Positions 52,530 to 61,195 of a stretch of 64,000 nt of DNA are shown here, one piece after another. The notes beneath the pieces are model-generated. The model saw only the letters and a list, made by a program, of their open reading frames with translations. It had not been told where the DNA came from and did not search any database. Both the position numbers and the translations under genes were made by a program. The stretch is taken from the NCBI RefSeq assembly GCF_016801775.1, contig NZ_CP069004.1, positions 3,224,001 to 3,288,000 of the forward strand, given 5' to 3'. Source of the DNA: Sulfitobacter mediterraneus (GTDB taxonomy: Bacteria > Pseudomonadota > Alphaproteobacteria > Rhodobacterales > Rhodobacteraceae). The stretch's first letter is position 1; each line of letters starts with the position of its first letter.

Positions 52530-52934
52530 GGGTTCATTCCTCGTGGTTTCGACGCAAGCAGAGTTACCACATCAGAAACTCATGTGTCAGCGTCGTATCC
52601 TGGACAAACTGAAGGCAAAATCAGACACCTGCCGGCATCGCCATTCAGCCGCTGGCCGCCTAGCCTTGCATGTAGGCACGGGCTACGATCACGGCAGTTC
52701 AAAAAACTAAATTTGCTTTCAATGTTGAAAGGCAGAGTGATTGGTTGAACGCCCAGACTATAGAGTGGCTGAAAGTCTTTCAGTTGAGGAAATCAGGTGG
52801 AAAATTGCGGGCATTGGTGCGCCTTGTTTCGGGGCGCACATGGTCGTTTGTTCTTGAGCTTATCCAGGGGTAAGCTGCCCTGTCTTTCGGGAAGTTATCA
52901 TATACTGTGCGCGGGAATCACTGGTGCGAATGCA
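52530..52934. other. Gene-free stretch before the RsbQ-type gene
   Basis: About 400 bases containing the divergent promoters of the YHS-like and RsbQ-like genes. No further gene is supported. The frame running in from 52797 has no ribosome-binding site and is not part of the hydrolase. Confidence 0.5.
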
Positions 52935-53735
52935 ATGTCCTTTTTGAAGAACCACAATGTCACTCAGTCTTCTGATGGGGGGCGAACCATAGTCTTTGTT
53001 CATGGCTACGGCTGTGACCAGAACATGTGGCGCTACGTTGTTCCACTGCTTTTCGGGACGGGCAAGATTGTACTCTATGATCTCATGGGGATGGGAAAAT
53101 CAGACGCCGCCAACTACGATTTTGACAGATATCAAAGCTTGACGGGCCATGCTGAGGATTTGGTCGGAATTCTTGATGAACTAGATGCTGTTGACGCGGT
53201 ACTTGTCGGGCACTCTGTGGGGGGAACAATTGCCGCTCTGGCCGCGCAAATGGTCCCTGACCGGATCAAGGCCTTGGCACTTATTGCTCCCTCTCCATGC
53301 TTTATCAATGATGCAGATTATGTGGGAGGGTTTGATCTGGAGACCATTGAAGGTCTGATCGACCTCATGGAGCAGAATTTTCTGGGTTGGACCTCTCAAC
53401 TCGTGCCCACCATCACCGGACAAAAGGCGGATGGTCTGGCCTCTACCGAGTTGGCTGAAAGCTTTTGCCGCGCGAATCCAAAGATTTCAAAGCACTTTGG
53501 TAGGGTAACTTTTTTGGCAGACCACAGAGAGGATATGAGCAAGATCCATTGCCAAACCCTTATCGTGCAATGTTCTGACGATGCACTCGCGCCGCTGAAC
53601 GTAGGTAATTGGTTGGCTTCGGCGATCCCGTCAAGTGAGTTGAAGGTCGTAGATGCGACAGGCCATTGCCCTCACATGACTGAACCAGCAAAAACTGCCG
53701 ACCTTCTGGCGGAGTTTTTGGAAGCACTGAAGTGA
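52935..53735 (+). CDS. RsbQ-type alpha/beta hydrolase
   Basis: A 266-residue protein, close to the 269 of Bacillus RsbQ, with the RsbQ pattern throughout: VHGYGCDQNMWR (24-33 region), VGHSVGGTIA with Ser94, SPCFINDADYVGGF, SDDALAP with Asp216, and ATGHCPHMTEP with His244. The catalytic triad is complete. RsbQ supplies or modifies a small hydrophobic ligand that the PAS domain of RsbP senses, under energy stress. The ATG at 52935 begins the conserved part. It is one base away from a PAS-HWE kinase gene, reproducing the RsbQ-PAS pairing with a kinase in place of the phosphatase. Confidence 0.87.
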   Translation: MSFLKNHNVTQSSDGGRTIVFVHGYGCDQNMWRYVVPLLFGTGKIVLYDLMGMGKSDAANYDFDRYQSLTGHAEDLVGILDELDAVDAVLVGHSVGGTIAALAAQMVPDRIKALALIAPSPCFINDADYVGGFDLETIEGLIDLMEQNFLGWTSQLVPTITGQKADGLASTELAESFCRANPKISKHFGRVTFLADHREDMSKIHCQTLIVQCSDDALAPLNVGNWLASAIPSSELKVVDATGHCPHMTEPAKTADLLAEFLEALK

Positions 53736-53736
53736 A

Positions 53737-55089
53737 GTGATGGCAAAGAGTATCCTGAGTGATGACTTAATTCATGAGGCCCCATGCGCTTTCTTGGTAA
53801 CGGATCTGAGAGGTACAGTGTCCTATGCGAACAAGACCCTCTCCGATTGGTTGGGCTGGGAGCTGGGCGATCTGGTTTCTGTTTCAAAGTTACACAGCCT
53901 TTTTGATCCGGCCAGCAGACTTTATTTTGAGACACAGATTTTCCCGAAAATTCTGCTTGATGGGCAGGTGAAGGCAATTTCCTGTTCCCTTCAAGCGAAA
54001 GACAGCAATTCCGTTATCCCGGTGCTCCTAAATGCGAAGCTTAGAAAACTCGCGGACCAAAACGCTGGAGAAATACACTTCGCTTTGTTTGATGCTTCCG
54101 AGCGGACAAGTTTTGAAAGGCAGTTGCTTGAAGCCAAGTCAGAAGCGGAGGAATTGGCCGCGATCGTTCGACATTCTCCTGACGGTATTCTGAGGTGCGA
54201 TAGTTCGGGCCTGCCTAGACGCATGAACCCGGCTGCAGTGATGATGATGGGCTTGGAGAGTGCTGAACCACCTCAAAAAAAGGTGAGTGACCTTATTGAG
54301 ATGACAGGGGAACGCAAAGACTGGTTTGACTATGCGCTGAACCGGCTGAGCGAAAATGCAGGACATGTTCGGTTTGAGACTTCTGACGACAGAGGTCGTT
54401 TTTTTGAAATCTCGGTTGCCCAGATTGATCAAACAGAAAACCCTTACGCGTCAAATGAGTATTCGATCATTTTGACTGATATAAGCGGTCGGGTTAAGGT
54501 GCAAAACCGCCTCAACTTGTTGGTCGAAGAACTGAATCACAGGGTTCGCAATATTTTCGCAAACGTGAGCGGCCTGGTGCGATTGTCTTTGCGTGGCGAC
54601 AAGTTAAAAACAGATCGAGAAAAGCTGCTTGGTCGGTTGGATAGCCTATCAAACTCCCACAACCTGGTGACTGCCAATCTATGGAAGCCGACAGAGCTAT
54701 CGGAATTGATAGTTCCGGTGATAGCACAGGCCAGCGATAATCAGCAGATCAGTTTCGATGGCCCTGACGTTAAGGTTGGTTCGAACCAGTTCAAGGCATT
54801 GTCGATGGCGTTCCACGAGCTAACAACCAACGCAAGGAAATACGGCGCATTGTCGGTATCGGGTGGCCAAGTTGAAATAACATGGTCACTTTCCGGCAAT
54901 GACAATCGCAATCTGCACATTCGCTGGTGCGAGCGAGGTGGCCCGCCGGTGGTGACACCCCAAAGAACCGGCTTTGGAACTATCATGCTTAAGCAAATGC
55001 TAAGCGCAGAGTTTGATGGTGATATATCCATGAACTATGCCCGTGACGGTCTTGAGTTTGATTGCACAGGTCGATTGAGATCTGACTAA
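53737..55089 (+). CDS. PAS-domain HWE-type sensor histidine kinase
   Basis: A protein of about 450 residues starting at GTG 53737 or ATG 53740. The first PAS domain (about 10-120) reads APCAFLVTDLRGTVSYANKTL, a short coiled linker (ERQLLEAKSEAEEL) follows, then a second PAS domain (about 140-250). The kinase core has the phospho-accepting H268 in EELNHRVRN, the N-box HELTTNARKYGAL (N365) and WCERGGPPV, the Trp-x-Glu mark of HWE kinases. No membrane segment is present. HWE kinases often feed the PhyR-NepR-EcfG general stress response. No response regulator is nearby, so the partner is encoded elsewhere. Confidence 0.87.
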   Translation: MMAKSILSDDLIHEAPCAFLVTDLRGTVSYANKTLSDWLGWELGDLVSVSKLHSLFDPASRLYFETQIFPKILLDGQVKAISCSLQAKDSNSVIPVLLNAKLRKLADQNAGEIHFALFDASERTSFERQLLEAKSEAEELAAIVRHSPDGILRCDSSGLPRRMNPAAVMMMGLESAEPPQKKVSDLIEMTGERKDWFDYALNRLSENAGHVRFETSDDRGRFFEISVAQIDQTENPYASNEYSIILTDISGRVKVQNRLNLLVEELNHRVRNIFANVSGLVRLSLRGDKLKTDREKLLGRLDSLSNSHNLVTANLWKPTELSELIVPVIAQASDNQQISFDGPDVKVGSNQFKALSMAFHELTTNARKYGALSVSGGQVEITWSLSGNDNRNLHIRWCERGGPPVVTPQRTGFGTIMLKQMLSAEFDGDISMNYARDGLEFDCTGRLRSD

Positions 55090-55294
55090 CCAAATTGAAA
55101 GCAACGGCAACAAGCCTACAAGACCAGAGCCTCACCACCTCTTGCCAATGATTTGCGTTTCTGGAGTGAACGGCTGAAAAACGCGCAAAACCCAAAGAAG
55201 CAACCGATGTGTCATCGATTGGATGGGGTAAAGGCGGACCAATAGCGAGAGCCTAACGGCAGCTATTTGATAACGCTAGATTAATCGGGGTTCC

Positions 55295-55309
55295 ATGGTG
55301 CTGCTGGAG
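55295..55309. repeat. attL core, 15-bp direct repeat
   Basis: ATGGTGCTGCTGGAG, identical to 61120-61134. It is the displaced end of the tRNA-Thr gene: reverse complement of its acceptor-stem 3' strand plus CCA and one flanking base. The surrounding sequence does not match. The stretch 55090-55294 to its left holds no gene. Confidence 0.78.
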
Positions 55310-55453
55310 GGCATTGTAAGCCTATATATTGGGGCACCACGGCATATCGCCCAAAGCAAATATTCCATATTTTATTGAATTTTCTTGCCCCAAGGTGTTT
55401 CGCCATGCCCCACAGCATACTATATGTTGAGGGTGGACCTGAGGGTGGACCAA

Positions 55454-56647
55454 ATGGCAAGAGCATTGAACAAGCTATCGGCACAGGCTGTCAAAGCGGC
55501 TGAACCCGGCAAATATTCAGATGGTGGTGGCCTTTGGTTCGCACGGGCCAAGGATGGCAATGCCAAGTGGTTCTTGCGGGTCGTAGTGCATGGTCGGCGG
55601 CGTGAAATGGGTTTGGGTGCATATCCTGCCGTATCGCTTAAGGAGGCACGGCTGGAGGCGGACAAGTGGCGGGCCGTTGTCCGCGAAGGGCATGACCCAA
55701 TCAAGGTGCGGGATAAACAACGCCGGGATAGTGAGCGCAACATGCACCTATTGCAGGACGTGGCGCTGGATGCCTTTGAAAGCCGCAAGGCTGAACTGAA
55801 AGGCGATGGCATGGCAGGGCGCTGGTTCTCACCTTTGGAAAACCATGTGCTGCCTAAGCTGGGCAAGGTTCCCGTATCAGAGATTGACCAGCGCGATATA
55901 CGCGACACCCTTGCCCCGATCTGGCATGACAAGGCGCATACAGCCAAAAAGGCCATGAATCGGCTGGGCATTTGCCTGCGCCATGCCGCCGCGCTGGGCT
56001 TGGATGTGGATCTGCAAGCAACAGATAAGGCCAAGGCACTTTTGGGCCAGCAACGCCACAAGACACAGAACACCCCGGCGCTGCATTGGCAGGATGTGCC
56101 TGCCTTCTATCAATCGCTGAACAAAGGCACGACAACGGAACTGGCGCTGCGCCTGCTTATCCTGACCGCGCTGCGTTCAAAGCCCGTGCGCTTCATGCAC
56201 CTTGACCAGATCGAAGGCGATGTTTGGACGGTGCCAGCGGACTTGATGAAAGGGCGCAAAGGCACAACCACTGACTTCCGGGTGCCGCTGTCCACAGAAG
56301 CCAAGGCGGTGATTGAACAGGCCAGACCCTTTGCACGCGATGGCTTCCTTTTTCCCGGCGTCAGGCGTGGTGTTATCTCGGATGCAACCATGTCCAAATA
56401 CATGCATCGGCGCGGCATGATTGAAACCCCGCACGGGTTCCGGTCCTCCTTTCGGGATTGGGTGGCAGAGACGACCAATACACCCCATGACGTGGCCGAA
56501 ACCTGCTTGGGACATGTTGTCGGCGGCAAGGTTGAGCGGGCGTACAGGCGCACGGATTTTCTAGAGCAAAGGCGAGCGCTGATGGAACGGTGGAGCAAGA
56601 AACTAAAGCAGCCTGTTGTATCAAACCTAATTGTTCTTGATGGCTAA
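55454..56647 (+). CDS. Tyrosine-type site-specific integrase (DUF4102 plus phage integrase domain)
   Basis: A 397-residue recombinase. The N-terminal arm-binding domain (about 1-90) has YSDGGGLWFARAKDGNAKWF and MGLGAYPAVSLKEAR, the DUF4102 blocks of P4-type integrases. The catalytic domain (about 200-385) shows TALRSKPVR (Arg), PHGFRSSFRDW (His-x-x-Arg), CLGHVVGG and AYRRTDFLEQR (Tyr). The ATG at 55454 precedes the DUF4102 domain. It catalyses insertion at the tRNA-Thr 15-bp core. The following gene overlaps its end by eight bases. Confidence 0.92.
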   Translation: MARALNKLSAQAVKAAEPGKYSDGGGLWFARAKDGNAKWFLRVVVHGRRREMGLGAYPAVSLKEARLEADKWRAVVREGHDPIKVRDKQRRDSERNMHLLQDVALDAFESRKAELKGDGMAGRWFSPLENHVLPKLGKVPVSEIDQRDIRDTLAPIWHDKAHTAKKAMNRLGICLRHAAALGLDVDLQATDKAKALLGQQRHKTQNTPALHWQDVPAFYQSLNKGTTTELALRLLILTALRSKPVRFMHLDQIEGDVWTVPADLMKGRKGTTTDFRVPLSTEAKAVIEQARPFARDGFLFPGVRRGVISDATMSKYMHRRGMIETPHGFRSSFRDWVAETTNTPHDVAETCLGHVVGGKVERAYRRTDFLEQRRALMERWSKKLKQPVVSNLIVLDG

Positions 56648-57290
56648 TAACCCCCTTCCAGAACCACTAAGTAATGACCAATGGATGCAAAGGTTGGAGT
56701 CCTTAGATTTGCAGTCTTCTCCGGCTAATTTTGATCAACTGGTTGAGCTTGCACGAACATCCTCGGCGCTCCGAATCGCATTTGATTCTGACTGGCAAAT
56801 CAATATGAACCGAAGTGGTAAGGTTGCATTCTTTAGGCAAGAACTTTTCTTGCTTCACGGCATTGAACCGTATTTTTCAGAAGAAACGGAGGATTGGTCA
56901 ACCCATCACACCTTGGCGGAAATACTAAAAGAAAGTCTTTCCGATCCGGACGTTTGGGATGCGTTGTCGGCGGTGGTTTCAGAGATTGTGCGAGATAACT
57001 TGCCCCTACTGCCTGAGACTAGAGAGTGGGCAAGTGGCACTATCGCTGGCACAATCAGTAGGCCAGCCGTTGGTCGAGGTCCGCACCCACTTAAGTACAG
57101 CGCACGCAATTCGATGGTGGTCTTTTTTCTGTCCCACCTTGAGAAATATGGTGTGCCCATCACCGAAAATGAAGCCACGCACAAAAACCAAAGCGCCTGT
57201 GATGCGATTTCGGAGGGGTTGGGCAACCATTTCGCAGTTCCGTCACCAAAGACACTGATGAACATTTGGTCAAACCGTTCCCAGAATTGA
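56640..57290 (+). CDS. Unrecognised 216-residue element protein
   Basis: A 216-residue protein beginning MANNPLPEPLSNDQWMQRLE. I cannot assign a family. It has an acidic N-terminal half rich in hydrophobic helices, no membrane segment and no signal peptide, and a C-terminal part that looks like a small helical DNA- or protein-binding domain (AISEGLGNHFAVPSPKTLMNIW). The ATG lies inside the end of the integrase gene, so it is translated with the integrase. It has lower GC than the flanking chromosome. A role in integration control or in host interaction is possible. Confidence 0.6.
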   Translation: MANNPLPEPLSNDQWMQRLESLDLQSSPANFDQLVELARTSSALRIAFDSDWQINMNRSGKVAFFRQELFLLHGIEPYFSEETEDWSTHHTLAEILKESLSDPDVWDALSAVVSEIVRDNLPLLPETREWASGTIAGTISRPAVGRGPHPLKYSARNSMVVFFLSHLEKYGVPITENEATHKNQSACDAISEGLGNHFAVPSPKTLMNIWSNRSQN

Positions 57291-57331
57291 AAGAGTATCT
57301 CCGGGTATGACTGAGTAGGCACCTGCTGTCA

Positions 57332-57354
57332 CATAGGATTCATCGCAACCTATG
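57332..57354. promoter_or_regulatory. Inverted repeat upstream of the AlpA-like gene
   Basis: CATAGG and CCTATG (six bases each, perfect) separated by eleven bases, ten bases upstream of the AlpA-like start. The position suits an operator for the element's regulator. Confidence 0.4.
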
Positions 57355-57364
57355 GAGCACATCA

Positions 57365-57535
57365 ATGCGCTATCTTTCATTTAAGGACCTGCAAGCCAAA
57401 CTCGGCAACCGTGGCCGCACTACCATCTACCGCGATGTAGATCTGGGCCGTCTGCCCAAGCCCACTAAAATCGGGTCTCGTCTATACTGGAATGAGGTCG
57501 ATGTTGATGCAGCGATTGCATCCTTTGCGGGTTAA
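57365..57535 (+). CDS. AlpA-like small DNA-binding protein
   Basis: A 56-residue protein: MRYLSFKDLQAKLGNRGRT, TIYRDVDLGRLPKPTKIG and RLYWNEVDVDAAIA. This is the MerR-type helix-turn-helix of AlpA/excisionase proteins (start region, Y-R-x-x-x-x-G-x-x-P-x-P, W-x-x-x-V-x-x-W/A). Such proteins activate or assist excision of P4-type elements. A perfect inverted repeat lies just upstream. It begins 75 bp after the unknown protein gene. Confidence 0.78.
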   Translation: MRYLSFKDLQAKLGNRGRTTIYRDVDLGRLPKPTKIGSRLYWNEVDVDAAIASFAG

Positions 57536-57648
57536 GACCCGTCCCACCCTGCGCACAAGCGCTGAGCATTTGGGACGGGAATATATCCGGCAAGATACGT
57601 CCTATACCTACGCCCAGCGCCGCGCTTTTTCAATCGAAAGGATTGAAG

Positions 57649-57936
57649 ATGCCACAGGCACACTTTTACTCAAAACCCACCAGCGTCTACTGGACGTGCA
57701 AAGCGCTCACAGAAGGGCGCACTATCTCCCAACTGACCCAAATTCAGAACGTGAAAGGCTGGCGTTTGGGGGCTATCATTCACCGCCTGCGCTGGGAGTA
57801 TGGCTGGCCGATCAAGACGGAATACTCCAGCCCCGGCCAAATCGCTCTTTACAGCCTTGCGCCAGACACAGACCGCAGCAAGTTGCGCTTTCCCAAATCC
57901 GCCAAGGCGCTGGGCGCAAAGGAGGGCGAGGTATGA
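57649..57936 (+). CDS. Helix-turn-helix-like element protein
   Basis: A 95-residue protein starting MPQAHFYSKPTSVYW. RTISQLTQIQNVKGWRLGAIIHRLRWEYGWPI has the look of a winged helix-turn-helix. An AAAGGA ribosome-binding site precedes the ATG at 57649. It is the first of four overlapping short genes. The function is unknown, but the position suggests regulation or replication of the element. Confidence 0.65.
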   Translation: MPQAHFYSKPTSVYWTCKALTEGRTISQLTQIQNVKGWRLGAIIHRLRWEYGWPIKTEYSSPGQIALYSLAPDTDRSKLRFPKSAKALGAKEGEV

Positions 57937-58037
57937 ACCGCCATCAGATTGCCCGCCTACGCCGCCGTTTTGGATTGACCGAAACCCAAGCCCGTTTGGT
58001 GGCCTTCTTGCACTATGGAGGGCCGCGCCATGGCTGA
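57933..58037 (+). CDS. Very short coupled open frame
   Basis: A 34-residue peptide (MNRHQIARLRRRFGLTETQAR...) starting in the stop of the previous gene (ATGA) and overlapping the next. The sequence is a plausible small helix-turn-helix (LRRRFGLTETQARLVAFL). It has a GGAGGGCGAG-like ribosome-binding site. It is probably translated, though its size makes this uncertain. Confidence 0.45.
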   Translation: MNRHQIARLRRRFGLTETQARLVAFLHYGGPRHG

Positions 58038-58200
58038 ACGCTTCAAACTCGCCAACCAAGGCGGGACTTGGCACGTCATGGCCCGCAAGGGCGCTGGAGC
58101 GGCCACAGAGGCGCTCTGGTTGTCCTTGGGGGGCTGTCCCGACCAGATCGTCGCAACCCGCGTCTATCTGGCCCTCAAGGCAAGGGAGGCGCTCAAATGA
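58030..58200 (+). CDS. Small unrecognised element protein
   Basis: A 56-residue protein starting MAERFKLANQGGTWHVMARK. The ATG at 58030 has GGAGG eight bases upstream, better than the in-frame ATG at 58015. It overlaps the neighbours on both sides (start inside the preceding gene, stop inside the next start). No family is recognised. Confidence 0.5.
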   Translation: MAERFKLANQGGTWHVMARKGAGAATEALWLSLGGCPDQIVATRVYLALKAREALK

Positions 58201-58661
58201 GCCGCAAGCCATACAAGGGTAAGAAAAAGGGGGCTGGGCGTTTCGTCCAGCTTCCTGAGTGGCTTCAAGCGTCAGAGGCATGGGCTACCCTCAAACCCGG
58301 TCCAAGGGCGCTCTATGTGGAGCTGAAGCGGCGTTACACCGGATCGAACAATGGGCGAATTGCCCTAAGCCATCGTGAGGCCGCACAACTGTTAAACGTG
58401 AGCCGCAATACTCCGGGGGCGTGGTTCAAGGAACTTGAGAGACGCGGGTTTATCCGCATGACGCAAGGCCATCATCTTGGGCCATCCGGTATCGGGCAAT
58501 CATCGCGCTGGGCGCTGGAGGAAGTGCCAACGGACAACATGAAAACCGCGCCAAAGTCTTTCATGGCGTGGCGGGAAAAAAAGAACCCCCGCACAAAAAC
58601 CGTGCCATCGCGTCACAATGGTTGTGACACCAAAGGTCAGTTGAGGGTGGTTGGGGGGTAA
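58197..58661 (+). CDS. Winged-helix DNA-binding protein (possible initiator or repressor)
   Basis: A 154-residue basic protein. A lysine-rich N-terminus (SRKPYKGKKKGAGRF) is followed by a winged-helix region (about 35-100) with ALSHREAAQLLNVSRNTPG as the recognition helix and FKELERRGFIRM as the wing. It ends in a basic tail. The gene's end and the 60 bases after it carry matching palindromes (58612-58681), so it may bind there as initiator or regulator. The ATG overlaps the previous stop (ATGA). Confidence 0.65.
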   Translation: MSRKPYKGKKKGAGRFVQLPEWLQASEAWATLKPGPRALYVELKRRYTGSNNGRIALSHREAAQLLNVSRNTPGAWFKELERRGFIRMTQGHHLGPSGIGQSSRWALEEVPTDNMKTAPKSFMAWREKKNPRTKTVPSRHNGCDTKGQLRVVGG

Positions 58662-58720
58662 AGCGTCACAATAACCGTGACAGGAAAGAGCAATTTGCTC
58701 ATTCGGGCGTCACAAAAATC
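58612..58720. repeat. Palindromic GTCACAA-type sites in the element (control or replication region)
   Basis: GTCACAA-TGG-TTGTGAC (58612-58628, perfect), a second copy GTCACAA-TAA-CCGTGAC (58665-58681, matching 13 of 17), a half-site GTCACAA at 58709-58715, and a separate palindrome GAGCAA-T-TTGCTC (58688-58700). The sites are clustered between the winged-helix gene and the gene at 58755. Confidence 0.55.
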
Positions 58721-58754
58721 AGGACATTTATACATCTAGCCATAGGCAGCGACC

Positions 58755-59285
58755 ATGACCAAAGAACCAAATATCGAACTCAGCTCTTTCGGAGTCAGCC
58801 TGAAAGGAACGCCAGAAGCCGGGCACCATGTCCACCTTGCAAAGGAGGACACACTTGAAAACCTGTTCCAAACAGATCTGCCGGAAATGGCAAACGGACT
58901 GCTGTCTCATTGCCTCAAGGTTCTCAAGGCCAATGAGGCAAGTGACGACTTTGCCGGAAACGATGAACGCGCCTTCATGCTGGCCGCAATCAAAGAACTT
59001 GCGCCTCGGGATGCCGTGGAACGGATGTTGGCGGTTCAGATGGCCGCAACCCATGTGGCCATGGTCAGGGCGGGGCGTTGGTTGGCGTCAGCGGACACGG
59101 TTGAAAAGGCAACGGCGTATAACTCCAGCTATACCAAACTGGCCCGCACCTACACGGCTCAGATGGAGGCGCTGCGAAAACATCGCAACGGAGGCAAGCA
59201 GACTGTCACAGTTCAGCATGTTAACGTAGAGGGCGGCGGGCAAGCCATTGTGGGCAACGTCCAGACGGGGGAGGGGCGTTCATGA
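58755..59285 (+). CDS. Conserved element protein paired with HGGXG gene
   Basis: A 176-residue protein. The C-terminal half (AATHVAMVRAGRWL, YTKLARTYTAQMEALRKHRNGG, TVTVQHVNVEGGGQAIVGNV) matches a family I know from alphaproteobacterial genomes, usually encoded next to an HGGXG protein. The function is not established. It overlaps the HGGXG gene by four bases. Palindromic sites lie just upstream and may control it. Confidence 0.7.
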   Translation: MTKEPNIELSSFGVSLKGTPEAGHHVHLAKEDTLENLFQTDLPEMANGLLSHCLKVLKANEASDDFAGNDERAFMLAAIKELAPRDAVERMLAVQMAATHVAMVRAGRWLASADTVEKATAYNSSYTKLARTYTAQMEALRKHRNGGKQTVTVQHVNVEGGGQAIVGNVQTGEGRS

Positions 59286-59530
59286 AAAGTGACGCCAACC
59301 CCATGCAAAGGGCACACCAAGCGCCGCGATGCGCCGCCCACTCAAAACGGACTGGCCTTCTATGCAAAAATCCTGCCGTTCGCGGCTGGCGCGTCTGTAG
59401 GATGCACGGAGCGGGAGGTGGTCACCCGGCAGGAATGCATCATCCAGCATGGCGACATGGGCTAAGGTCCGGTCACGTCATCGCTCTGAGGCAGCTCGTA
59501 AAGCAGTTGCAGCGCGGCAAGGGCGCTTGA
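59282..59530 (+). CDS. HGGXG-motif protein
   Basis: An 82-residue protein. RCAAHSKRTGLLCKNPAVRGWRVCRMHGAGGG contains the cysteine-histidine pattern and the motif in MHGAGGGHPAGMHHP that names this family. Such proteins are common in prophages and elements and are thought to bind metal or nucleic acid. It follows the conserved 176-residue gene and precedes the AT-rich region before the Fic gene. Confidence 0.72.
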   Translation: MKSDANPMQRAHQAPRCAAHSKRTGLLCKNPAVRGWRVCRMHGAGGGHPAGMHHPAWRHGLRSGHVIALRQLVKQLQRGKGA

Positions 59531-59714
59531 GTGGACTGACAGAGGGCGTGGTTTCGAGCTAGCCCCTCTTTTCCCATCACCCACCCACACGGAGTATCCC
59601 CCTGCGCTGGGCTGCTATCGGCTTCTTGGTTGCTTTGTTTCCGGCCCGACGTATGTGGCTATCAATAATCACATGCATTTGTAGAAAAATGTGCTATTCT
59701 GATAGACAAGAATC

Positions 59715-59750
59715 TTAAAAAATGTGGACTTTAGGTTCACAATTTTTTAA
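59715..59750. terminator. AT-rich imperfect inverted repeat before the Fic gene
   Basis: TTAAAAAATGTG and CACAATTTTTTAA pair with one extra base, leaving an 11-base loop. It is T-rich on both strands and may stop transcription in both directions, insulating the Fic gene. The surrounding 59531-59801 is AT-rich and holds no gene. Confidence 0.5.
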
Positions 59751-59801
59751 CTAACAATATGATGTTAATATATAAAAAATAGACATACGAAGGGAGAGAA
59801 A

Positions 59802-60995
59802 ATGTCGGCGAAGAGGGAATACTTGAGGACACACCCGTGGCTCACCTTCACCATGGATGTCACTCGGCTGCCGCATCAGTCTTGGATGGACTTAGGCGAG
59901 ATAATCTCAAAAGCAAAGCATGTAGCCAATGCGCCGATCGACCCGGACCATGCTACTAAGATGTACAACATTTTCTTAGCTAAAGGGGCTGCTGCAACCA
60001 CTGCGATTGAAGGTAATACGCTTACTGAAGAGGATGTGCTTAAGCAGGTTGAAGGCGGTTTAAAGCTGCCTGATTCCCAAGAGTATCTCCAAAAAGAAAC
60101 GCAGAATATCATTGATGCGTGCAACGGGTTTGTCGAAGATTTGAGGCATTCAAACCCGGCTGACTGCGAGGTCACAGTAGACTTCATTAGATCGCTAAAT
60201 TTGAAAGCTCTGGAGGGCTTGGATTTGGAGGATGGCGTCGTTCCTGGCGAAATCCGTCGGCACAGCGTGGTGGTTGCCGGGTATCGCGGGGCCCCAAACG
60301 AAGACTGCTACTATCTACTCGAGCGGATGTGTGAAGTGGTAGAAGAGATGCTTTGCTCTGACAATGATGAGCAGTCCAAGTTTATGAAGGCTATTTTCGC
60401 GGCGCTTTTTTCGCACGTTTACATAGCGCTCATCCACCCGTTTGGGGATGGTAATGGGCGGACGTCGAGGCTTCTAGAGGTTTATATTTTGCTTCGTGCG
60501 GGGTTTCCAATGCCGACCTGCCAGTTGCTCAGCAATCATTACAACAAAACGCGAACCGAGTACTACCGGAAGCTCGACGCCATTTCAAAGAAGGGCGAGC
60601 TGATGGAGTTTAACTCCTACGCATTGCAGGGCTTCGTTGACGGTTTAAGGGAGCAGGTCGAGCAAATTCAGTTGGAGCAGGTAAGAGTCACTTGGGTCAA
60701 CTATGTTCATGCTGAATTCGCAGACAAAACTACAGAGGCCGCCAAGCGACAACGAAATCTTGCGTTGGCGATAAGCCGATCCAATGAGCTCAGAAGAATT
60801 CAAGATGTATTGGCCGCTGATCTGGAGATGGGTCGTACCTATGCGCAACTCGCGGTCAAGACGCTGACCCGCGATATCAATGTGCTTGTAGATATGGAGC
60901 TTATTCGGCGAACTCCTCGCAAAAGGGTGAGGCCAAACATTGAAAAAATTACCTCATTCTTACCTTGGAAGAACGACGTCGACGATGAGGCGTAG
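59802..60995 (+). CDS. Fic-family protein with inhibitory motif
   Basis: A 397-residue protein. The Fic active site is complete: HPFGDGNGRTSR at 212-223. An inhibitory motif of the [S/T]xxxE[G/N] type is present near the N-terminus (T66 to E70-G71 in TTAIEGN), which places it in class II, self-inhibited. A winged-helix-like C-terminal region (about 330-390) follows a coiled segment. Fic proteins transfer AMP or related groups to target proteins. The gene has lower GC than its neighbours and stands alone at the right end of the element, with a poly-A/T hairpin upstream, as expected of cargo. The target is unknown. Confidence 0.87.
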   Translation: MSAKREYLRTHPWLTFTMDVTRLPHQSWMDLGEIISKAKHVANAPIDPDHATKMYNIFLAKGAAATTAIEGNTLTEEDVLKQVEGGLKLPDSQEYLQKETQNIIDACNGFVEDLRHSNPADCEVTVDFIRSLNLKALEGLDLEDGVVPGEIRRHSVVVAGYRGAPNEDCYYLLERMCEVVEEMLCSDNDEQSKFMKAIFAALFSHVYIALIHPFGDGNGRTSRLLEVYILLRAGFPMPTCQLLSNHYNKTRTEYYRKLDAISKKGELMEFNSYALQGFVDGLREQVEQIQLEQVRVTWVNYVHAEFADKTTEAAKRQRNLALAISRSNELRRIQDVLAADLEMGRTYAQLAVKTLTRDINVLVDMELIRRTPRKRVRPNIEKITSFLPWKNDVDDEA

Positions 60996-61120
60996 TCAAC
61001 TGGGCGCTCTTAGCCAACCTCAAGGGCTACAAGCGCGCGGTGAAAGGTGGCCTAAAGGGTGGTCTGGTAAAATGAGGAAGAATCTATCTCATTGATTATA
61101 ATGCGAATTTAGTAGGTAAA

Positions 61121-61195
<75 letters not shown>

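Follow-up and report, generated by a model that had tools for sequence, protein, structure and literature searches.

We examined a 64,000-nt stretch of the Sulfitobacter mediterraneus genome (NZ_CP069004.1, assembly GCF_016801775.1, positions 3,224,001-3,288,000; hereafter the window, to which coordinates refer unless a contig is named) in which a tyrosine integrase gene and a Fic-domain gene are enclosed by short direct repeats at a tRNA-Thr gene. This segment is almost certainly a site-specific integrative element, and the reading that we favour, with some confidence, is that of a helper-dependent, satellite-like element. A first-pass annotation of the window had proposed exact 15-bp repeats around an integrase-to-Fic segment, and the 15-mer ATGGTGCTGCTGGAG indeed occurs exactly twice in the 64 kb, both times in the same orientation and never on the opposite strand. 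The distal copy (attL core, 55295-55309) precedes the integrase with the same repeat-to-integrase geometry as in relatives, and the identical tRNA-proximal copy (attR core, 61120-61134) comprises the 3' end of an intact tRNA-Thr(GGT) gene (61121-61195, minus strand; ARAGORN, Rfam 75.3 bits) plus 1 nt. The tRNA was the only Rfam match at gathering score between 52 and 63 kb. With both repeats the element measures 5840 bp, its GC content is 53.5% versus 57.2% for the window, all ten of its reading frames are intact, as are the two repeats, and its sequence was matched only once in its own 4.2-Mb genome.

If the repeats delimit an insertion, an unoccupied site should not carry both 15-bp copies at the same spacing, and this had been named beforehand as an observation that would overturn the proposal. 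We compared the tRNA-Thr(GGT)-murA junction in 20 other genomes of the genus, chosen from 28 same-genus loci besides that of genome G035, and sought a second copy of the 14-nt tRNA end with up to one mismatch over a span of 8-16 kb. No such empty site was found among the 20, which bears out the reading of the repeats: 18 had no second copy, none had an integrase matching the window profile, and in 12 the 14-nt tRNA end was the same as the window's. Among all 22 sites, only those of the window and of G035, the genome of the S. mediterraneus sister element, show a single further copy of the tRNA end next to an integrase of this type, 5.8 kb away in the window and 13.4 kb away in G035. The remaining two sites have short tandem tRNA-end copies, at 116 bp and at 232, 348 and 464 bp; these tandem ends, spaced at multiples of 116 bp in two Sulfitobacter genomes (L206 and L213, also L004 and L011) that have no window-type integrase there, may be integration scars or an array. 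On the other side of the element, 2.6 kb of flank matched 57 other genus genomes over at most 91 bp, so the ancestral left junction is not visible and the tRNA side was compared instead. That flank (52700-55294), which encodes a hydrolase and an HWE histidine kinase, may itself have been acquired.

All ten genes of the element lie on the plus strand. The tyrosine integrase (55454-56647; Pfam Arm-DNA-bind_3 8.4e-19, Phage_int_M 1.8e-12, Phage_integrase 5.2e-8) overlaps by 8 nt the gene p216 (56640-57290), for which no Pfam family was found and which we treat as an analogue of iolg, the integrase-overlapping gene of phage-inducible chromosomal minimalist islands (PICMIs). An AlpA-like excisionase or regulator follows (57365-57535; HTH_17 1.5e-4, Phage_AlpA 0.0023, PHROG excisionase 1.2e-4), then a chain of translationally coupled short genes with overlaps of 4, 8 and 4 nt: g95, a small winged-helix-like protein (57649-57936; HTH_39 0.0018), g34 (57933-58037, beginning in an ATGA overlap), g56 (58030-58200) and the winged-helix protein wh154 (58197-58661). 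The signature protein of the family, p176 (58755-59285), is coupled through a 4-nt overlap to an 82-aa HGG protein (59282-59530; NCBIfam HGG_STG 6.7e-6), and the Fic-domain gene (59802-60995) lies last. AlpA, g95 and HGG all score under the curated cut-offs of Pfam and NCBIfam, and these names are tentative. The AlpA-like regulator, the coupled short genes and the 176-aa/HGGXG pair described in the first-pass annotation are thus all present, and its statement that capsid, large terminase, conjugation and partition genes are missing also held: scans of the ten proteins against Pfam, PHROG, NCBIfam and PADLOC matched no capsid, portal, large terminase, relaxase or partition family, and the only match to a packaging or capsid-redirection family was a weak one between HGG and a small-terminase PHROG (0.014). 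We also considered the AlpA-like gene as part of a MADS defence system on the basis of a PADLOC mad1 match (8.5e-7) and rejected this, since the protein reaches only 12.2 bits on NCBIfam MADS1, where the cut-off is 80; no other MADS protein was matched among the ten.

p176 has 2404 homologues; its profile returned 285 relatives in named genome contigs, and the best 80 were annotated together with the window, giving 81 loci. In an even draw of the family Rhodobacteraceae, 50 of 394 genomes, that of the window included, had a p176 match (E 0.001). A search for the same gene order at tRNA-Thr in other Rhodobacterales had been suggested as a check; within the Rhodobacteraceae the order recurs, running from the integrase and its overlapping gene through AlpA, the small genes and the replication module to p176-HGG and the cargo, both at tRNA-Thr and at other tRNA genes. 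In 74 of the 81 loci an HGG gene comes after p176 at a distance of no more than 1.2 kb, and a window-type integrase lies upstream in 34. Since 26 of the 60 loci that have at least 6 kb upstream or a visible integrase lack one of the window type by profile, the p176/HGG pair is wider in distribution than the element. Phage_integrase matches were present in 16 of 16 genomes whose p176 loci lack the window-type integrase; these could not be assigned to the loci and were not used. The small genes are sparser, with profile matches in 9 (g95), 13 (g34) and 9 (g56) of the 81 loci.

In the 34 integrase-bearing loci, a tRNA gene lies beyond the cargo in 15, beside the integrase in 7 and in neither expected place in 12. 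In 14 of the 15 tRNA-distal loci, the window among them, 14-20 nt of the tRNA 3' end recur ahead of the integrase match at a distance of 169-264 bp (0 of 200 shuffles each), 13 of these 14 repeats falling at 169-196 bp; the exception, L140, has no repeat of at least 11 nt. Because the tRNA 3' end is repeated before the integrase in the window and in 13 of 14 comparable relatives, with no shuffle reproducing it, we do not regard the 15-bp repeat as a product of chance. The bounded tRNA-distal elements span 4.2-13.4 kb and target tRNA-Thr (three anticodons), Leu, Arg, Ser, Ala and Lys genes. The seven tRNA-proximal loci divide into two with a repeat of 14 nt (matched by 0 of 100 shuffles), two with one of 11 nt (matched by 3 and 6 of 100) and three (L091, L092, L161) with no repeat of at least 11 nt within 0.8-2 kb beyond p176. 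Relatives that have the genes and no flanking repeats, also anticipated as evidence against the proposal, therefore exist on the tRNA-proximal side (3 of 7) and nearly vanish on the tRNA-distal side to which the window belongs (1 of 15).

Exchange of parts is visible in a sister element from S. mediterraneus (L082). Relative to the window, it is 92% identical over the integrase segment, 89% from AlpA to wh154 and 90% over p176, its 80 bp on the tRNA side are 100% identical, no match to the window's HGG or cargo was found in it, and p216 is replaced by a distant relative (23% identity over 97 residues, E 1e-5). At the level of sequence, this is module exchange. In the same sister (L082:8498-10045), the wh154 end and its dyads are duplicated around an inserted 237-aa gene; S. 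mediterraneus DSM 12244 also has a second p176 locus (L083), with integrase, AlpA and wh154, whose p176 shares 72% identity with that of the window. The position behind the integrase likewise varies among the 34 integrase loci: 26 have an open reading frame (ORF) of at least 120 aa directly after the integrase, overlapping it by 1-11 nt in 19 and by exactly 4 nt in 13, counts that carry no chance control and come from a script that favours starts at -4, -1, -8 and -11. By BLAST these ORFs fall into 21 families, and L088 joins the p216 family when an iterated profile is used. Collectively, the comparisons support integration at tRNA ends, modular exchange and a recurrent layout.

The element probably has its own replication module, a role suggested by fold and by repeats. 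wh154 matches a DnaD-like helicase loader PHROG (5.5e-7), and its predicted structure best resembles plasmid initiators, the top matches being initiator chains 4pql, 5kbj and 4pt7; we consider it a probable replication initiator. The palindromes attributed to the winged-helix gene were located as three 17-bp dyads of the form GTCN11GAC, GTCACAATGGTTGTGAC (58612-58628, a probable iteron), GTCACAATAACCGTGAC (58665-58681) and GTCACAAAAATCAGGAC (58709-58725). Across 23 comparable intervals, such dyads occur in 15 and are absent from 8, 34 in total against a shuffle mean of 1.8 and maximum of 6, a pooled pattern derived in part from the same sequences in which it was counted. Single-locus counts of repeated 7-mers reached p 0.05 in only 9 of the 23 intervals, so the repeat claim is built on the pooled dyads. 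In some relatives the same slot is filled by Prim-Pol, DUF3987, D5_N/DUF5906, Toprim/DnaB or VapE modules.

The closest known kind of element is the PICMI satellites of the Vibrionaceae, which share the order int-iolg-alpA. According to the accessible text of PMC10803314, iolg most often overlaps the integrase by ATGA, comprises 13 families and is needed for excision of PICMI115, and PICMIs were reported to protect their host from other phages. The PICMIs described there and the window element are alike in being very small and in combining an integrase and the gene overlapping it with AlpA, a handful of short genes and a gene for replication, and in lacking capsid-remodelling genes; the genes after the integrase fall into many families in both. 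The co-location of tyrosine integrase and AlpA is shared too, with the AlpA scores of the window under the curated cut-off. That same text gives a model that requires a primase (DUF3987/DUF5906) and an adjacent fis, and by this model the window element is not a PICMI: a Pfam scan found no primase with DUF3987 or DUF5906 in it, a winged-helix initiator and dyads stand in that place, its site is tRNA-Thr(GGT) rather than fis, and it has the p176/HGG pair. Some relatives (L099, L109, L117, L138) do carry such PICMI-type primases. The element can thus be set closer to a described class than the first-pass annotation allowed: its integrase, integrase-overlapping gene and AlpA match PICMI satellites, although primase and fis set it apart.

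Gram-negative phage-inducible chromosomal islands (PICIs) and P4-like satellites combine an integrase, an AlpA-type regulator, their own replication module and exchangeable defence cargo. The window element shares the first two, as inferred from fold and dyads the third, and also the exchangeable, probably defensive cargo; it differs in having other core proteins and, beyond the weak small-terminase match of HGG, no recognised packaging-redirection or capsid-sizing gene. The tmRNA islands of Pseudomonas moved by a jumbo phage, as described in the available portion of PMC12595487, likewise have direct repeats, of 14 bp, at an RNA gene and combine a tyrosine integrase and AlpA with defence cargo but no recognised transfer genes; unlike the window element, they are larger, have YqaJ/RadC and other core genes and occupy tmRNA. 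A Pseudomonas phage record (vB_Pae_U1, PP003913.1, 16 kb; L205) with no structural gene annotated and the order int-cox-small genes-O-primase also looks like an island.

The cargo of the window element is the Fic gene, whose translation holds the motifs HPFGDGNGRTSR, which we take to be the Fic active site, and TTAIEGN, presumably an inhibitory-helix motif of the class II type. It matches Pfam Fic (5.6e-10) and, over 345 residues, the PADLOC SoFic model (3.7e-50). SoFic acts by abortive infection via AMPylation in the accessible text of PMC12249575, which places the anti-Sofic gene AS1 on the downstream side of Sofic; the window has there only a 51-aa ORF overlapping the end of the Fic gene. 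Against its being SoFic, the protein scores 44.1 bits on the NCBIfam SoFic equivalog, whose cut-off is 550, and its best matches among PDB sequences are FICD homologues. We consider a role in phage defence probable and hold it at that level because the NCBIfam score lies so far below its cut-off. The Fic profile had no match in the other 80 p176 loci. A scan of 87 non-core ORFs from 15 bounded relatives listed 25 of 96 PADLOC, 25 of 75 PHROG and 25 of 58 Pfam families; among the matches listed are type IIG restriction enzymes, PycC, RT-Toprim and PDC-S02 by PADLOC and MmeI, Type ISP, Mrr and cyclase domains by Pfam, and no terminase, capsid, portal, tail or relaxase appears among those of PHROG and Pfam. 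The PADLOC families represent defence cargo, with restriction, Pycsar-type and reverse-transcriptase systems among them. Transposases and a few chromosomal-looking ORFs (His_biosynth, porin) are also present, which may mean that certain right ends are misplaced or that part of the cargo is metabolic.

These data suggest how a helper-dependent, satellite-like element of this kind could work. Judging from its anatomy and the comparisons, recombination by the integrase between the 15-bp core and the tRNA-Thr 3' end would leave the tRNA intact; by analogy with PICMIs, AlpA, probably together with p216, would drive excision. wh154 may bind the dyads at its own 3' end and start replication of the excised circle, which would use parts of the host or helper replisome, and the element would then leave the cell inside helper-phage particles, with Fic as an exchangeable cargo that probably guards the host by abortive AMPylation. 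The first-pass annotation had offered a satellite-like or a minimal defence-carrying element: comparison favours a minimal tRNA-Thr element with exchangeable, probably defensive cargo, and satellite status fits the layout only. We give transfer by a helper phage an even chance. p176/HGG is a speculative candidate for helper interaction or packaging, and we propose only tentatively that the relatives form an undescribed satellite family of Alphaproteobacteria, defined by p176/HGG as a new module of helper capture or packaging specificity and by interchangeable replication cassettes (an initiator with dyads, or Prim-Pol, DUF3987 or D5 primases).

Several results bear on a packaging role of the pair. 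p176 had no match in 50,697 phage records and HGG two weak 26-residue matches, both in Thermus phages; Foldseek of p176 against PDB and viral models returned nothing at or below 0.001; and in Bradyrhizobium (L141, L148) the pair lies outside any element of this layout, near ordinary chromosomal genes for a penicillin-binding protein and a branched-chain amino-acid transporter. A packaging role therefore stays a hypothesis. A small terminase was suggested by the place of the pair after the replication genes and by the weak PHROG match of HGG (PHROG 10899); it is kept as speculation because the best E of the p176 profile against PDB sequences was 0.85 and the fold search gave no match at 0.001. 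The small terminases of HK97 and Sf6 appeared in that search only at E above 1, the viral-model (VIA) matches were mostly generic helical hairpins over residues 85-151, and no terminase name occurs among 120 listed of 398 HGG homologues, most of them nameless. The element shares no DNA with phages at E 0.1, nor did two scans of viral contigs, made with the profiles of p176 and wh154, confirm any relative. P0120 (9 contigs) and P0190 (8 contigs), homologues of p176 and wh154, both have a longest contig of 5232 bases and are perhaps one recurrent metagenomic form.

Hitchhiking on conjugation, in which a co-resident conjugative system would move the circle through an oriT mimic, seems unlikely and is the strongest of the alternatives. 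Such mimics need no relaxase, relatives of p176 are present on 13 plasmid records, and three show DNA matches to parts of the element; however, eight of the 13 are typed non-mobilizable and five mobilizable, primase or initiator modules and AlpA are features of satellites, and general library scans found neither a relaxase, by which an integrative mobilizable element would be recognised, nor a coupling protein among the ten proteins. Slightly less likely still is a cargo island spread by gene transfer agents (GTAs) or transformation and inserted by its own integrase, with no phage parasitism. The host genome does have a capsid gene at C1:600207 and, close to it, a GTA_TIM gene at C1:607546, a mark of Rhodobacterales GTAs, and some family members are small (4.2-5.8 kb), but all except one of the 14 tRNA-distal elements bounded by repeats are longer than 4.5 kb, roughly a GTA load, and reach up to 13.4 kb, and a replication module would be superfluous. 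These two matches, 6.5 kb apart (C1:600207-608439), probably belong to a GTA cluster, which explains the single match in a helper-prophage search of the host genome that used the Phage_capsid family. We think it very improbable that the element is an immobile relic kept for its Fic gene, as its single match in the genome and an excision known only by inference might suggest, since its reading frames and repeats are intact and the S. mediterraneus sister shows module exchange. Least probable is a prophage remnant that has lost its structural genes, for which the integrase, excisionase-like AlpA and phage- or plasmid-type initiator speak, but against which stand the same compact order at many tRNA genes in many genera and the near absence of p176 and HGG from phage records.

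The satellite-like reading matters because most of the satellite families known so far belong to Enterobacterales, Vibrio and Gram-positive hosts, and Rhodobacterales are an abundant marine order. Among the matches listed from the accessible open-licence PMC literature, we found neither phage satellites from Rhodobacterales nor a description of the p176/HGG family, and the words "satellite" and "AlpA" occur nowhere in the accessible text of a Rhodobacteraceae prophage survey (PMC8224337). The family looks like a set of tiny tRNA-gene islands, seemingly self-copying and often carrying likely anti-phage genes, which may travel inside another virus's particles and could explain the movement of such genes among Rhodobacterales bacteria at tRNA genes. 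With a defined p176/HGG pair and layout, and p176 in the share of genomes given above, the family is searchable, and helper dependence is testable in culturable Sulfitobacter.

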